A stretch of 64,000 bases of DNA from Planctomycetota bacterium. Lineage in GTDB: Bacteria > Planctomycetota > UBA1135 > GCA-002686595. The notes beneath the pieces are model-generated. The model did no database searches and was not told where the DNA came from. It worked only from the letters and a program-made list of their open reading frames with translations. The first letter of the stretch is position 1. Every line of letters starts with the position of its first letter. Both the position numbers and the translations under genes were made by a program. The DNA lies in contig JANQEJ010000253.1 in assembly GCA_028278425.1 (NCBI GenBank), positions 1-64,000 on the forward strand, given 5' to 3'. Below, in pieces: positions 33,643 through 42,334 of this stretch.

Positions 33643-34944
33643 GTGCGCGCCCCCTCTCTCTTCGGCCTGCCGCTCCTGCTGGCGGCGTGCGTCGCCCCCC
33701 GGTCGGGCGACCCGTGGTTGGGGGAGTTCTGGGGCGACGAGCCGGCGCTCGGGCGCCAGCGGGTGAAGCTCGTGCTCGACGAGGCGGGCGAGGGCGGCTC
33801 CCGGCGGCGCGCCCTCTCGAACCTGACGGGCAGTCGCCTCGTCGCGCTGGCCGAGCACGTGGCGCTCGACGGCGGCGCGCTGGTGGAGGTGCGCGACGCG
33901 CAGCCCGCCTCGATGCGCCTGGGAACGCCCGTCGGCGAGCTCGTGCTCGAGTGCGAACGGAGCGCGTCGGCGATCGAGGGTCGCTGGAGCGGCGGCGGCT
34001 ACGCCGGCGGCTTCCGCTGGACGCGCGAGCCCGACGCGGCGCCGCTCGAGGACTACCCGGCGCTGCTCGAGGAATTCGTCGCGACGCTCGACGAGCACTT
34101 CGTCCACCCGGCGCGTCTCGCGACCGGCGAATGGCGCGACGCGCTCGCCGGCGCGCGCGAGCGCGTCGCCTGGGTGCGCGACGACTTCGAGTTCGTCGGG
34201 CTCGTCGTTCTTCTCGTGAGGACGCTCGGCATGCCGGACGTCAGCACGAATTGCCTGCGGATGGCGGCGAAGCCGGGCGAGACCGACGCCGAGGTCGAGT
34301 GGATCGACGACGTCGCCGTCGTGCGCTTCGGCGCGGTGCAGAACGGAGTGGGGGAGATCGACGCGGTCTTCGAGGAGGCCCTCGACGCCCGCGCCGTCGT
34401 GCTCGACCTGCGCGGCTCGTTCGGCTACGACCTGACGGCGGCGCGCATGCTCGCCTGGCTCGTGCCGGAGTCGAAGCCCGTCGGCTACATGCTCGGGCGC
34501 CAGCGCGCCGACGCCGGTCCGTTGCCCCCGGAGCAGCGCGACCGCCTGCCCGTGGCGAGCGGCGCGTACCAATTCGACCTCTACCGCAAGCTCCTCGCGC
34601 GCAACGGCGTCACCGCCGGGGCCTGCGAGTCCTGGTCCGAGGACGAGCGCGTCACCGGGCCGCTGATGGTGCTCGTCGACGAGCGCACCTCGGCCGCGGT
34701 CGAGGGCGCGGTCGAGTACCTCCAGCACATCGATCGGGGAACCGTCGTCGGCGCGGAGACCGCCGGCGCGGCGGTCGACGCCGAGCTCTTCCCGCTCTCG
34801 AACGGATGGGTGGCGGTCGTGCCGGTGGCGGTCTGGGTCACGTGGGAGGGACGGATGCTCCAGGGAGCCGGCGTCGTGCCGGACGTCCGCGTCGAGCCCG
34901 AAGAGGCGCTCGACGTCGCGCTCGAGCTCCTGGCTTCGCCTTGA
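33643..34944 (+). CDS. S41-peptidase-like lipoprotein with displaced active-site serine
   Basis: The protein has 433 residues from the GTG at 33643, which gives a lipoprotein signal L-L-L-A-A-C-V. The second half has the S41 (C-terminal processing peptidase/tricorn) core: V-A-V-V-R-F-G-A-V, A-V-V-L-D-L-R-G-S-F-G-Y-D, and M-V-L-V-D-E-R-T-S-A-A-V-E-G-A. In active S41 enzymes the motif is T-A-S-A-x-E with Ser two positions after Thr. Here Ser is one position after Thr and the expected place holds Ala. The later V-V-G-A-E-T-A-G-A and V-V-P-D-V segments are present. It may be an inactive or altered peptidase. A TACCGT box six bases upstream supports the GTG. Confidence 0.75.
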   Translation: MRAPSLFGLPLLLAACVAPRSGDPWLGEFWGDEPALGRQRVKLVLDEAGEGGSRRRALSNLTGSRLVALAEHVALDGGALVEVRDAQPASMRLGTPVGELVLECERSASAIEGRWSGGGYAGGFRWTREPDAAPLEDYPALLEEFVATLDEHFVHPARLATGEWRDALAGARERVAWVRDDFEFVGLVVLLVRTLGMPDVSTNCLRMAAKPGETDAEVEWIDDVAVVRFGAVQNGVGEIDAVFEEALDARAVVLDLRGSFGYDLTAARMLAWLVPESKPVGYMLGRQRADAGPLPPEQRDRLPVASGAYQFDLYRKLLARNGVTAGACESWSEDERVTGPLMVLVDERTSAAVEGAVEYLQHIDRGTVVGAETAGAAVDAELFPLSNGWVAVVPVAVWVTWEGRMLQGAGVVPDVRVEPEEALDVALELLASP

Positions 34945-35008: not shown

Positions 35009-35548
35009 ATGGCAGCCGAACGCGACCCGCACCGCTGGGTCCTCGACGCGCTCGAACGCTACGAGGGACCCCTGATCCTCTACGCCGCTCGCTTCACGGG
35101 CGACGTGGACCGCGCGCGCGACGTCGTCCAGGAGGCGTTCCTGAAGCTCTGCCGGAAAGACCCGGGCGAGCTGGAGGGACGGCTGGCGGAGTGGCTCTAC
35201 ACCGTCTGCCGCAACCTGGCTTTCGACGTGAGGAAGAAGGAACGACCGATGGCGGCGACGAACGAGAGCGGGCTGGTCGAGCGCACCAGCCCCGAGGCCG
35301 GACCCGGCGAGCGCGCGGAGCGCGCGGAGGCCGTGTCCGAGGTGCTGGAGGTGCTCGGCGCCCTGCCGGCGAACCAGCAGGAGGTCCTGCGGCTGAAGTT
35401 CCAGCACGGGCTCTCCTACAAGGAGATCAGCCGCGTGACCGAGCTTTCGGTGAGCAACGTGGGCTACCTGATGCACGTGGGGTTGAAGACGCTGCGCGAG
35501 AAGCTCGCGGGCGCGGCGGCGCCGGAGCTCGGCGGAGGTGCCCAATGA
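35009..35548 (+). CDS. ECF-type RNA polymerase sigma factor
   Basis: The protein has 179 residues, the usual ECF length. Region 2 includes A-A-R-F-T-G-D-V-D-R-A-R-D-V-V-Q-E-A-F-L-K-L, the core-binding and -10-recognition helix pair. Region 4 includes L-P-A-N-Q-Q-E-V-L-R-L-K-F-Q-H-G-L-S-Y-K-E-I-S, then V-S-N-V-G-Y-L-M-H-V as the -35-recognition helix. A charged linker of about 35 residues separates them. The stop codon overlaps the start of the VWA gene (ATGA), so the two are co-translated. The partner carries an anti-sigma-like head, suggesting that the sigma factor is membrane-held until a signal arrives. GAGGGGGG precedes the ATG. Confidence 0.92.
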   Translation: MAAERDPHRWVLDALERYEGPLILYAARFTGDVDRARDVVQEAFLKLCRKDPGELEGRLAEWLYTVCRNLAFDVRKKERPMAATNESGLVERTSPEAGPGERAERAEAVSEVLEVLGALPANQQEVLRLKFQHGLSYKEISRVTELSVSNVGYLMHVGLKTLREKLAGAAAPELGGGAQ

Positions 35549-37509
35549 AGAACGGAACGAACGACCTGCGGGACGACCCGCGGCTGACGGCCTACGCGCT
35601 CGGCGAGCTCGAGGGCGACGAACGCGCGGAGTTGGAGAGGGAGCTTCGGGACGACCCGCGCGGGTCGGAGGCGGTGGGAGAGGTCCGCGCCCTCGGCGCG
35701 GCGCTGGCGGAGGAGCTCGGGCGGGCGGAGCCTCGGCCGAGCTTGACGGCCGAGCAGCGCGCGGCGATCGCGGCGGCGGGCGGCGAGAGCGGAGGAGGCA
35801 GAGCGTTCCGGTTCCGTCGCGTCGCCGCCGTCGTCGGTTCGCTCGCCGCGGCTGCACTCGCGGTGACGTTCTTCCTGCCCGGCTTGATGAGCAAGCGGCT
35901 TGGAAGCGCCGAAGACGCGGTGCCCGCGCTCGAGTCGGAGCCGGTCGCGATGAGCCCGCTGCCGACGGAGGGAATCGCCCACCGCTACAGGGGACCCGGC
36001 GACTCGGCGCCCGGGCGCAGGGCTCTGAGGCCGGAGCGCGAGGGCGGCGCCGTCCTCGACGAGCTTCGGGGGCTCGGCTATCTCGGCGAGAAGGACACCG
36101 AGACCTACGAGCGCATCGTCGAGAACCCCTTCGTCCGCGTGCTCGACGACCCGCTCTCCACCTTCTCGATCGACGTCGACACGGCGAGCTACGCCAACGT
36201 GCGGCGCTTCCTGAACGAGGGAAGGCTCCCGCCCGCCGACGCGGTGCGGATCGAGGAGCTCGTCAACTACTTCACCTACGCCTACCCGCCGCCCGCGGGG
36301 CCGGATCCGTTCTCGGTGACGACCGAGGTGGCGGCGTGCCCGTGGACGCCGGCGCACAAGCTCGTGCGCATCGGCCTCAAGGGGCGCGCGATCACGAGCT
36401 GGGAGCCGAAGGAGAAGAACCTCGTGTTCCTGATCGACGTGTCGGGGTCGATGAACGACGCGGCGAAGCTACCGCTGCTCAAACGGTCGATGCGGCTCCT
36501 GGTCGAGAACCTGAACGAGTCGGACCGCGTCGCGATCGCGGTGTACGCCGGCGCCTCGGGGCTCGTGCTCCCGGCGACGCCCTGCGACCGCAAGGAGACG
36601 ATCCTCGCCGCGATCGAGGAGCTCTCCGCCGGCGGGTCGACCAACGGCGGCGAGGGCATCGAGCTCGCCTACTGGGTCGCGCGGCGCAACTTCATCGAGG
36701 GCGGCATCAACCGCGTCATCCTCGCCACCGACGGCGACTTCAACGTCGGGGTCACCGATCGCGACGACCTGATCGAGCTGATCGAGAGGAAGGCGAAGAG
36801 CGGCATCTTCCTCTCGGTGCTCGGCTTCGGCACCGGCAACCTGAAGGACGCGACGATGGAGCAGCTCGCCGATCACGGGAACGGCAACTACGGCTACATC
36901 GACTCGCTGCAGGAGGCGCGCAAGGTGCTCGTGCGCGAGGGCGGGGCCACGCTCGAGACGATCGCGAAGGACGTCAAGATCCAGGTCGAGTTCAACCCGG
37001 CCGAGGTGGCGGCCTTCCGGCTGATCGGCTACGAGAACCGCGTGCTCGCGCACCGCGACTTCAACGACGACACGAAGGACGCCGGCGAGATCGGAGCGGG
37101 GCACACGGTGACCGCGCTCTACGAGGTCGTTCCGGTCGGCGTGCCGCTCGACGTCGCCGCGGGGGACGTGGACGATTTGAAGTACCAGGAGCCCGGGGCT
37201 CCGAGCGGAGCCGCCTGGAGCGGCGAGCTGATGACCGTGAAGCTGCGCTACAAGCGCCCGGACGGGGACGTGAGCGTCCCCTTCGACGTGCCCGTGCGCG
37301 ACGAGCGCCGCCCGCCCTCGGAAGACTTCCGCTTCGCCGCCGCCGTGGCGGCCTTCGGGATGACCCTGCGCGATTCCGCCCATCGCGGGGGGATCGGCTT
37401 CGACGCGGTCTACGACCTGGCGGTCCAAGGTGCCGGACCGGACCCGTTCGGCTACCGCTCGGAATTCCTGCGCCTGGTCCAGCGAGCGGGCGAGCTCAGC
37501 GGCCGCTGA
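35545..37509 (+). CDS. VWA-domain (YfbK-type) membrane protein with anti-sigma-like N-terminus
   Basis: The protein has 654 residues. Residues 1-60 (LTAYALGELEGDERAEL and following) have the helix pattern of anti-sigma domains but lack the zinc His/Cys set. A transmembrane helix follows (about 93-112). Residues 195-290 match the domain preceding VWA in YfbK proteins (FSIDVDTASYANVRRFL). The VWA domain (about 295-470) carries an intact MIDAS: D-V-S-G-S-M, a Thr in G-G-S-T-N-G-G and A-T-D-G-D-F. A DUF3520-like C-terminus follows. The MIDAS would bind a metal and a protein ligand in the periplasm. Overlap with the sigma gene supports a one-chain membrane anti-sigma sensor. Confidence 0.85.
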   Translation: MKNGTNDLRDDPRLTAYALGELEGDERAELERELRDDPRGSEAVGEVRALGAALAEELGRAEPRPSLTAEQRAAIAAAGGESGGGRAFRFRRVAAVVGSLAAAALAVTFFLPGLMSKRLGSAEDAVPALESEPVAMSPLPTEGIAHRYRGPGDSAPGRRALRPEREGGAVLDELRGLGYLGEKDTETYERIVENPFVRVLDDPLSTFSIDVDTASYANVRRFLNEGRLPPADAVRIEELVNYFTYAYPPPAGPDPFSVTTEVAACPWTPAHKLVRIGLKGRAITSWEPKEKNLVFLIDVSGSMNDAAKLPLLKRSMRLLVENLNESDRVAIAVYAGASGLVLPATPCDRKETILAAIEELSAGGSTNGGEGIELAYWVARRNFIEGGINRVILATDGDFNVGVTDRDDLIELIERKAKSGIFLSVLGFGTGNLKDATMEQLADHGNGNYGYIDSLQEARKVLVREGGATLETIAKDVKIQVEFNPAEVAAFRLIGYENRVLAHRDFNDDTKDAGEIGAGHTVTALYEVVPVGVPLDVAAGDVDDLKYQEPGAPSGAAWSGELMTVKLRYKRPDGDVSVPFDVPVRDERRPPSEDFRFAAAVAAFGMTLRDSAHRGGIGFDAVYDLAVQGAGPDPFGYRSEFLRLVQRAGELSGR

Positions 37510-37614: not shown

Positions 37615-38619
37615 ATGAAACGTTCGTTCGTCGCAGGGTTCGCCGCGACCCTGGCCCTCGCCGCTCTTCCGGCCGGGGCCCAGGACGCCAACGCGGCCTT
37701 GCAGGAGAAGTACGAGAAGAAGCTCCAGAAGGAGTTCGTCAGCAAGATCGCCTGGGCGCACTCCTTCGAGGAAGCCCGCGCCACCGCCAAGAAGGAAGGG
37801 AAGCTCGTCTTCGGGTACTTCACCCGCAGCTACGCACCGTGACCGCCGTGTAACCAGCTTGAGGGCGGGGCCCTCTTGAGCGATTGGTGGACGGAACTCT
37901 CCCAGGAATTCGTGCCGTACCTGAACGTCACGGCGCACCTCGACGACAAGCCGGACCAGGACCTGCTCACCGCCAAGGGCGGGAGCGGTTTCCCGACCTC
38001 CTTCTTCTTCGACCCGGAGACCGGCGCCGTGCTGAACGACTGGTTCGCGCCCAGCTCCGCCGACGCGGTCCGCGAGGTGATGAAGAAGGCGAAGGCCAAG
38101 TCCGACGAGCTCACCAGCCTCCGCAAGGACGCGGAGGCGCGGCCCGACGACAAGCCGCTGCAGGCGGAGCTCAAGATCCGGCTCGCGATGATGCGCGCGG
38201 GCGACACCTCGATCGAGGAGCTCGCCGAGCTGGCCAAGACTCCGGGGCTCGACGAGGGGCTCTTGAAGGAGTTCGAGGGCTGGTTCGGCGCGATGCGCGT
38301 CGAGAAGCTCCTCGGCAAGGCCCAGATGGCCGAGACCCGCGAGGAGTTCGAGGAGCAGATCCGCGAAGGGTTCCACAAGCTCCTCAAGGAGGGCGTGCGC
38401 CTGGACTACGAGCACCAGAACGCGCAGTTCTACTACGCCTACGCGTTCCACGGCTCGGTCGACGCGGAGGATCACGCCACCGCGCAGAAGGCCTTCGACG
38501 GCTACAAGGCGGTCATGAAGCTGCTCGTCGCGCAGCGGCCGCAGTACAAGGCCAAGGTCGAGGAGGACCTGCAGAGCTACCAGGAAGCGCTCGACGAGCT
38601 CGCCGCCAGCAAGCGCTAA
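37615..38619 (+). CDS. Probable selenoprotein: exported thioredoxin-fold protein with U-P-P-C redox site (in-frame TGA at 37840-37842)
   Basis: Read through the TGA, the frame gives 334 residues. A signal peptide ends at PAGAQ. The thioredoxin-like N-part has L-V-F-G-Y-F-T-R-S-Y-A-P, then TGA (codon 76), then P-P-C-N-Q-L-E. TGA stands exactly where the first Cys of a C-P-P-C redox pair belongs, and the frame stays open and conserved-looking after it (YLNVTAHLDDKPDQDLL, then GGSGFPTSFFFDPETG with the cis-Pro of the fold). A helical region of about 200 residues follows. A hairpin at 37857-37881 fits a bacterial SECIS. The best reading is selenocysteine at 76. Alternatives are a nonsense mutation, or two genes with the second starting at TTG 37876, which would lack the redox site. 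GGGGAG precedes the ATG. Confidence 0.8.
37857..37881 (+). promoter_or_regulatory. SECIS-like hairpin behind the in-frame TGA
   Basis: A perfect six-bp stem, GAGGGC (37861-37866) with GCCCTC (37870-37875), has the loop GGG. Below it are a two-T bulge (37876-37877) and four more pairs, GCTT (37857-37860) with GAGC (37878-37881). The first loop G lies 24 bases after the TGA. Bacterial SECIS elements need a hairpin with a G at the start of the loop roughly 16-37 bases after UGA, so the geometry fits. Confidence 0.65.
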
Positions 38620-38646
38620 GCGACGAGCCCCGGAGCAGAAGAAATG

Positions 38647-38676
38647 GGTGGCCCCCGCTATCCGGCGGGGGCCACC
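38647..38676. terminator. Strong bidirectional hairpin terminator
   Basis: GGTGGCCCCCGC (38647-38658) pairs perfectly over 12 bp with 38665-38676, with a six-base loop. It follows the selenoprotein gene, and the stop codon of the leftward ABC gene (38658-38660) lies at the edge of its loop. Confidence 0.8.
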
Positions 38677-40555
38677 GCGTTTCTCGCTCCCCGCCGGTCC
38701 CCCCCGGACCAGGCGTTTTCGCGGAGCGAGGATTCGCGCAGCTTCTGCTGGACCACCAGCTCGAAGTAACGGCCGCGGCGCGCCATCAGCTCGCCGTGCG
38801 AGCCCGCTTCCGCGATGCGCCCGCCTTCGATCACGAGGATGCGCTCGGCGGAGCGGATCGTGGAGAGGCGGTGGGCGATCACGAAGCTCGTGCGGTTCGC
38901 GAGCACGCGCGCGAGACCGCGCTGGATGCGCTGCTCCGTCTCCGTGTCGACCGACGCGGTGGCCTCGTCCATCACCAGGAGGCGCGGGCGGGCCAGGATC
39001 GCGCGGGCGAACGAGACGAGCTGCTTCTGCCCGGTGGAAAGGCGGTTGCCCCCCTCGCCGACCTCGGTCGCGTAGCCGTCCTCCAGCTCGGCGATGAAGT
39101 CGTCGGCGCCGGCGAGCCGCGCGGCCTCGCGCACCTCCTCGTCGCTCGCCTCCAGCTTGCCGTAGCGGATGTTGTCCGCGACGCTTCCGCTGAAGAGGTG
39201 CGGCGTCTGGAGCACGATCCCCAGGTTGGACTGCAGCCAGTGCAGCCCGCGCCGGGTGTAGTCCACGCCGTCGATCAGGATCCGGCCCGCGGTCGGCTCG
39301 TAGAACCGCGCGAGCAGGCTCACGATGGTCGACTTGCCGCCGCCGGTCGGGCCGACGAGCGCGACCGTCTCGCCCTCGCGGACGGTGAGGTCGAAGTCCT
39401 GAAGAACTTCCTCGCCGCCGTCGTAGGCGAAGCTCACGCCCCGGAACTCGATCGTGCCGAGCTCGTCCGCGAAGCCGTCCTCGGCGATTCCCTCGCGCGG
39501 GCGCTTGCGATTCGCGTTCACTGCGTAGCGGGTGATCGCCGCGTCGCGGATGCGCGGTTCCTCGGCGATGAGCCCCAGGATGCGCTCCGCCGACGCCTGC
39601 GCCATCTGCATCTCGGCGAACCAGTGCGCCATCTCCTGCACGGGGTCGAACAGGTGTCCGGTCCACGTCAGGAAGGCGATCAGCGTCCCGACCGAGATCA
39701 ACCCGGCGGTGACGTCGTAGCCGCCCCAGGCCAGGGCCAGCCCGGTGGAGAGGCTGCCCAGCGTGAGCACGACGGGCAGGTACAGCGCCGACTGCAGGCT
39801 GTTCTGCATCGACGCGCCGTACATCTTTCCGGTGAGGCCGCGGAACTCCTCGAGGTCCTCGTCCTCGCGCGCGAACACCTTGCTCGTGCGCACCGCCATG
39901 ATGCCCTCGTTGTAGGCGGCGGTGATGCGCGAGTTGGTCTTCCGCACCGCTCGCGAGCTCGCGAGGATCCGGCGCTTGAAGACGGCGGAGACCCACGCGA
40001 GGAACGGGAGCACGCTCAGCACGATCAGGGCGAGCTTGGCGTTCATGACGAGCATCGCCACCGCGATGCTCCCCATGAGGGTCACCCCCCAGACGAGGTC
40101 GAGCACGCCCCAGGCGAGGATGTTCGACAGCCGCTCGACGTCCGACGTCATGCGCGCCATCAACCAGCCGGTGGGGCGGTGGTCGAAGTACGAGAACGAG
40201 AGATCCTGCAGGTTGGCGAAGCCGTCGCGGCGGATGTCGTGCGCCACGTGCGTGCGGATCTTCCCCGCGAGGCGGATGAAGGCCACGATGCACACGCAGA
40301 ACGCCGCCGCCAGCGCGGCGTAGATCCACGCGTACCGGGCGAGCGGTTCGGTCGAACGGGTCTCCGCCACGTCGTCCACGACGCGCCGCGTCACCAGCGG
40401 AAGCGCGGCGTCGATCAGCGCCGTCAGAACGGCGAAGAAGACGAGCAGGATCACCTCGCGGCGATAGGGGCGCGTGTAGCCCCAGAGCCGCCGCCAGAGC
40501 GAGAGGTCGAGCTGCGCAGCGTAGCTCTCCTCGCGCGGACGTCGATCGCGGGAAT

Positions 40556-40559
<4 letters not shown>
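38658..40559 (-). CDS. ABC exporter half-transporter with canonical ATP site
   Basis: The protein has 633 residues: six-helix exporter transmembrane domain (about 30-330) plus nucleotide-binding domain. Visible motifs are Walker A G-P-T-G-G-G-K-S-T, the signature in N-R-L-S-T-G-Q-K-Q, Walker B L-L-V-M-D-E-A-T-A-S-V-D with the catalytic Glu, and the H-loop I-A-H-R-L-S-T-I. The S-T-G-Q signature differs from the usual S-G-G-Q. The gene starts by ATGA overlap with the upstream half-transporter, whose ATP site is degenerate, so the pair should form a heterodimer like TM287/288 or BmrCD. The substrate (lipid, drug or peptide) cannot be told. The last codons run into the terminator hairpin. Confidence 0.88.

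Positions 40560-42334
<1,775 letters not shown>

Follow-up and report, generated by a model that had tools for sequence, protein, structure and literature searches.

The gene at positions 37615-38619 (+ strand) of the window, by which we mean the whole stretch of 64,000 nucleotides analysed here, is almost certain, judging from sequence comparisons, to encode a redox protein that is exported and has selenocysteine (Sec) in its active site. The product is very probably a selenoprotein in which Sec is inserted at residue 76 through SelB and a downstream hairpin, and which most likely acts as an extracytoplasmic thiol-disulfide oxidoreductase. The family to which it belongs is much larger than this gene alone.

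Translation of the region confirmed the gene structure of the original prediction: an ATG at 37615 is followed by 75 codons, an in-frame TGA as codon 76 (37840-37842), a further 258 codons in the same frame and a TAA at 38617-38619. With TGA read as U, the motif region of the encoded protein (hereafter the window protein) is GYFTRSYAP-U-PPCNQLE. The gene and its features are as follows.

37615-38619, + strand: predicted selenoprotein gene, from the translation with TGA read as U and a 28-member alignment over the whole length
37615-37683, + strand: probable export signal peptide, residues 1-23, assigned by eye from the translation
37840-37842, + strand: TGA codon 76, position 1 of the U-P-P-C redox pair; TGA in 46 and TGC in 3 of 49 motif-bearing members
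37849-37851, + strand: Cys79, second (resolving) residue of the UxxC motif, invariant in the 28-row alignment
37857-37881, + strand: bacterial SECIS-type hairpin, a bulged 10-bp stem with a fold of -14.0 kcal/mol, its place conserved and with covariation in relatives
37993-37995, + strand: Pro127, at the cis-proline place of thioredoxins, invariant in the 28-row alignment
38059-38607, + strand: all-helical C-terminal domain, residues 149-331, from an AlphaFold2 model

Standard gene callers had been expected to split the gene and leave a fragment starting at TTG 37876, and both pieces indeed appear in a mechanical ORF list: the first ends at TGA 37842 and comprises 92 aa from GTG 37564 (75 aa from ATG 37615), and the second comprises 247 aa from TTG 37876. 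Both were scored as coding by a simple codon-usage gene caller (scores of 48 and 164).

It is the relatives that lift the case above chance, with TGA found at the same codon in 46 of the 49 motif-bearing members. The window protein was used to search 61 genomes, its own and 60 relatives, giving 48 match rows in 26 genomes; exactly one TGA was present in 40 of these rows and none in eight. Within its own taxonomic family, 5 of 37 genomes (its own counted) held a TGA-bearing match, and the protein family is thus patchy there. In an alignment of 28 members (27 with TGA and one with Cys), both gene pieces aligned over their full length in every row, and Y68, F69, R71, S72, U/C76, C79, E83, P127 and G137 (window protein numbering) were invariant. 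Of the 392 sampled Planctomycetota genomes searched with this alignment, 272 gave a match at E ≤ 0.001 and 81 gave one at E ≤ 1e-40, the latter being our own threshold for a strong member, a class that takes in a few Cys forms; some of the weak matches are ordinary CxxC thioredoxin-like proteins.

The 49 members were obtained by filtering 63 loci (L020-L082) with a motif pattern, identical stretches being counted once and loci without the motif, such as L043-L045, falling outside the set. L040, from a genome (G052) of the same order as the window's own, and L052 are one gene and were likewise counted once. L042, which contains Ns, was left out of a sliding-window test. The codon at the place of codon 76 was TGA in 46 members and TGC (Cys) in three, a ratio that may favour TGA since the members were taken from the top matches to a query dominated by TGA forms. 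Ordinary stops elsewhere in the gene, which the original prediction had named as the sign of a misreading, were thus not the pattern among relatives. A true stop at TGA, whether from a pseudogene, a sequencing error or two small genes, would fit the two ORFs of the mechanical list and a hairpin that is unexceptional when the window's copy is taken alone; against it stand the TGA at the same codon in these 46 members, the full-length alignment of both pieces in 28 members and the Cys codon in a sister gene (L050), and we consider a true stop very improbable.

L050, from bacterium isolate Co_bin.8, is the Cys homologue with Y-A-P-C-P-P-C that had been proposed as a check on the reading; it reads YFTRSYAPCPPCNALEDGPLVSDWW, is 38% identical to the window protein and is its sister in a phylogenetic tree (support 100/99). 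The tree comprised 51 members (46 Sec and 5 Cys), was unrooted and placed L050 and L042 on long branches. The Cys rows were scattered over it, requiring five changes, three of them forced by well supported branches; among these 51 members, the five changes between Sec and Cys were no fewer than with shuffled labels. A pattern scan of one genome for each of 84,980 species was also made with Sec written as Cys in the pattern, so that outside the phylum only Cys forms were detectable; it gave 19 pattern matches, three of which were relatives, namely L050 and, from Planctomycetota, L051 and L052. By eye, 16 regions with non-TGA matches were examined: L103 and L104 appeared to be intact Cys forms, L108 was the L050 gene again, and L112-L118 were ordinary CxxC thioredoxin-like proteins. 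The remaining ones were paralogues lacking TGA, of which L109-L111 have Cys at the first redox place and have lost the second, and L105-L107 keep Cys at the second redox place only.

The hairpin was found where it had been predicted, 24 bases past the TGA. Its core is formed by the stem GAGGGC/GCCCTC (37861-37875) with the apical loop GGG (37867-37869), which lies 24 nt after the UGA. Published constraints on bacterial SECIS elements comprise a loop of 3-9 nt, a stem of 4-16 bp, an energy of at most -7.5 kcal/mol, a G in the first two loop positions and a distance of 16-37 nt after the UGA (PMC13188914), and the window hairpin, with 6 bp, the loop GGG, 24 nt and -9.1 kcal/mol for the core, agrees with all of these. 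Taken alone it is unexceptional, as an equally good fold was seen in 10 of 200 dinucleotide shuffles of 30 nt and in 88 of 200 of 45 nt, and comparison with synonymous-codon controls gave P = 0.15. The window hairpin was accordingly rejected as sole evidence, its own copy being no stronger than chance.

Across the family, the constraints as coded here were satisfied by 39 of the 46 TGA members, seven failing, and by one of the three Cys members; in the same ORFs, the background rate over other codon positions was 8.6% (871 of 10155). With the energy limit set at ≤ -12 kcal/mol, the corresponding figures were 46% of TGA members and 0.7% of the background. The best uninterrupted stem between +15 and +45 was also compared with controls in which synonymous codons were redrawn without changing the protein: the 46 TGA members averaged 7.7 bp against 4.7 bp in the controls, the stem length reached P ≤ 0.05 in 27 of the 46, and the mean energy Z was -2.2, with values of +0.3, +1.0 and +0.5 for the Cys members.

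A nine-pair helix in 46 aligned stretches was then scored against 500 shuffles, none of which was as high for cells paired (84.8% vs 79.3% in shuffles), for double-change cells (22 vs 6.3) or for the covariation score (0.283 vs 0.208). Two further measures were weak, namely helix pairs with double changes (5 vs 3.0, a level reached by 15 of 500 shuffles) and further pair types (13 vs 11.4, reached by 88 of 500). For cells paired, for double-change cells and for covariation, the true register of the helix surpassed all slid ones, and it tied on the other two measures; all the covariation tests are inflated by kinship among the members. RNAalifold proposed seven pairs of the nine-pair helix; four of these show double changes, and the covariation term is small.

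The original prediction made its reading depend on selA, selB, selC and selD, and all four are present in the genome that carries the window (7.83 Mb in 364 contigs, 89.33% complete, 2.41% contaminated). tRNA-Sec scored 74.8 bits (cut-off 47) and was called by ARAGORN as tRNA-SeC with anticodon tca, SelA scored 495.8 bits, SelB 357 bits with the full model covered, and SelD 313.9 bits. With this machinery, the TGA conserved at the same codon and the Cys homologue, the predicted selenoprotein is supported. As a separate observation, the SelD gene of this genome (L018:560-1520, contig C155) itself has an in-frame TGA at the Sec place of Sec-type SelD, CAG-U-AAK, a context that fits the UxxK motif listed for Sec-type SelD (PMC13188914).

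Of the 81 genomes with a strong member, 74 also have SelA, compared with 168 of the remaining 311 (odds ratio 9.0, Fisher p 4e-11), presence being defined by our own threshold of E ≤ 1e-60, which gives 242 genomes where the standard cut-off gives 239. The seven strong genomes in which SelA was not found are G081, G218, G226, G263, G265 and G374, which are 67-84% complete, and G311 (91%). Among the close-relative genomes, SelA was present in 59 of 61, and with presence so near universal co-occurrence is uninformative there.

UGA could also be read as an amino acid other than Sec, through a changed code or suppression, and the frame is indeed open with TGA read as any residue. We regard this as highly unlikely, given that the full Sec machinery is encoded in the genome, that the TGA lies at the redox Cys place of the homologues and is followed by a SECIS-type hairpin, and that the YfbK-type gene at 35545-37509 ends in TGA just past a full YfbK_C domain. 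A changed genetic code was rejected because UGA ends this neighbouring gene right after its conserved end. Several family members also seem to end at TGA, which is suggestive only, since the script closed frames at any TGA.

An AlphaFold2 model built with four sequences (mean pLDDT 86.6, pTM 0.75) showed a thioredoxin fold in which residue 76 immediately precedes the helix formed by residues 77-83, followed by helices from residue 149 to 331; residues 1-19 were the sole low-confidence segment. In Foldseek, the best match was the thioredoxin 2lst (E 7.1e-5), followed by DsbH 2ju5 (E 3.8e-4), and structures of DsbD-gamma appeared above 0.001. The model and these matches agree with the predicted thioredoxin-fold protein carrying TGA at the first redox position, and the place of Pro127 presumably corresponds to the cis-Pro role in thioredoxins.

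Selenocysteine would be introduced by SelB, which, carrying Sec-tRNA-Sec, would bind the hairpin just past the UGA, and insertion at residue 76 would yield the full-length protein. The product would be exported and would combine a thioredoxin fold bearing the U-P-P-C redox pair with a C-terminal domain made of helices. The Sec76 selenolate may then attack a substrate disulfide and Cys79 resolve the selenenylsulfide, a chemistry like that of the two Cys of DsbH or DsbD-gamma, except that the nucleophile would be more reactive. By analogy with these proteins, the window protein most likely works outside the cytoplasm as a DsbH- or DsbD-gamma-like thiol-disulfide oxidoreductase; the direction of electron flow, the partner and the substrate are points that we infer.

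The main work of the selenoprotein might instead go beyond disulfide exchange and be chaperone-like, with a redox arm and a helical client-binding domain. Such a role is suggested by the modelled helical domain of about 180 residues after the thioredoxin fold, by the six paralogues lacking TGA (L105-L107 and L109-L111) that have lost one redox residue and still match the family, and by the third Foldseek match, 3qdn, aligned over 302 columns with E 5.3e-4. However, TM values of 0.23/0.27 and an rmsd of 21.6 for 3qdn mean that the helical parts do not superpose, and UxxC together with the invariant Pro127 is the classical layout for disulfide exchange; we therefore consider a chaperone-like role unlikely and retain the oxidoreductase as the preferred reading.

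Gene neighbourhoods were inspected by eye in 20 regions around members, using a simple gene caller, and no constant neighbour was found. A conserved operon was thus rejected, as the neighbours differ from place to place in these regions, and for the same reason no partner can be named. Just upstream of the selenoprotein gene, an ECF-type sigma factor gene is followed by a YfbK/vWA-domain gene (35009-37509, +), and the peptidase family S41 gene further upstream (33643-34944) is not evidently linked to the selenoprotein. A pair of adjacent ABC transporter genes with membrane and ATPase domains lies on the opposite strand (38658-42334, -). These and the selenoprotein gene converge, and the very stable hairpin between them (38640-38684, -38.3 kcal/mol, 0 of 200 shuffles as low) is terminator-like on the - strand.

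The window protein reached no NCBIfam cut-off and stayed below that of Pfam Thioredoxin_7 (18.5 of 27 bits), a family matched by 27 of the 28 aligned members. At E ≤ 0.01, the 28-member alignment gave NCBIfam matches to DsbH, TsoB, Trx7/PDZ, VPGUxxT, DsbD and PDI models (best 3.6e-11), and matches to several thioredoxin-type models are as expected from the shared domain. DsbH (NF043050, 2ju5), a Cys protein, shares the exported type of thioredoxin fold and was matched by 26 of 28 members at E ≤ 0.01, including the best match of 3.6e-11; its model, however, has 166 positions and is without the large helical domain, and the window protein scored 17.8 bits where the curated cut-off is 190. Sec-type thioredoxins of PF00085 likewise have UxxC at the start of the active-site helix, but only 2 of 28 members matched this family at E ≤ 0.01, and the window protein exceeds them in length and also has a signal-like N-terminus and a helical domain.

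Two selenoprotein models showed further partial likeness. The Trx7/PDZ domain (seleno)protein NF041199 has a Thioredoxin_7-type domain and was matched by 16 of 28 members at E ≤ 0.01, whereas its motif is listed as CxxU (PMC13188914) and that of the window protein is UxxC; no PDZ family was found among the Pfam matches (E ≤ 0.01) of the 28 members, which places the window protein outside NF041199. TsoB (NF045694, a Rhodanese/DsbD fusion-like selenoprotein) has a DsbD-gamma-like part and was matched by 18 of 28 members (best 1.6e-8), but is described with two Sec, a UxxxxU motif and a rhodanese part (PMC13188914), compared with one Sec in the window family and no Pfam match to rhodanese among the 28 members.

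Table 1 of the 2026 catalogue of selenoprotein families (PMC13188914) lists 119 families, with UxxC ones of thioredoxin type including a generic PF13098 UxxC thiol:disulfide interchange protein. Like the window protein, the latter (representative WP_011366075.1) is predicted to be a selenoprotein and has UxxC within a domain of thioredoxin type, but in a comparison by domain the window protein itself had no PF13098 match at E ≤ 0.01. By the descriptions given in the catalogue, rather than by comparison of sequences, no listed family has this motif or architecture. The string planctomyc* is absent from the main text of both the catalogue and a 2022 review (PMC9312934), and little literature on selenoproteins of Planctomycetes or Planctomycetota was found, namely a single genome paper that devotes a section to the subject (PMC4807772), which names planctomycete selenoprotein candidates in its supplement.

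The family may already be known, either under the generic name PF13098 UxxC or within the supplementary table of that Porphyra planctomycete paper. In favour of this, PF13098 was matched by 14 of 28 members at E ≤ 0.01, the catalogue holds the PF13098 UxxC family (PMC13188914), and the candidates of two planctomycetes are listed in the supplementary table (PMC4807772). On the other hand, the window protein reaches no NCBIfam cut-off, the NCBIfam models matched among the 28 members are general thioredoxin-type ones alone and matched weakly, and neither review mentions planctomycetes in its main text (PMC13188914, PMC9312934); on balance we find a previously known family somewhat unlikely. The kind of protein, a UxxC thioredoxin-fold selenoprotein, is already known, and the window family appears to be new. 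Judged by the catalogue's descriptions, a new family is likely rather than certain. The word "new" in the original prediction thus holds against NCBIfam, the descriptions of one 2026 catalogue and the literature found, and its support extends no wider than these.

Taken over the phylum, the gene probably represents an undescribed selenoprotein family spread across Planctomycetota, with a motif of about YF[TS]RSYxxUxPCxxLE and a thioredoxin fold joined to a helical domain, often in several copies per genome and split by gene calling, in which Sec is usual and Cys rare and scattered. It would add a seemingly large selenoprotein family to a phylum for which little literature on selenoproteins was found, and redox genes of Planctomycetota are likely annotated as two fragments. 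With Sec the usual form, Cys forms rare and scattered and some copies without a redox residue, thiol chemistry that is based on selenium and located outside the cytoplasm may rank among the major uses of this element in Planctomycetota. Sec is kept nearly always (46 of 49), copies have multiplied within genomes, and a small number of Cys copies no longer have the hairpin; this natural series lends itself to studying the reasons for retaining Sec and the requirements of a SECIS element.

Tandem copies were also seen. In G043, a TGA copy and the paralogue L105 are arranged in tandem, and G049 has seven TGA-bearing matches (contigs C10, C77, C124, C126, C168 and C213), two of which are in tandem on C77.
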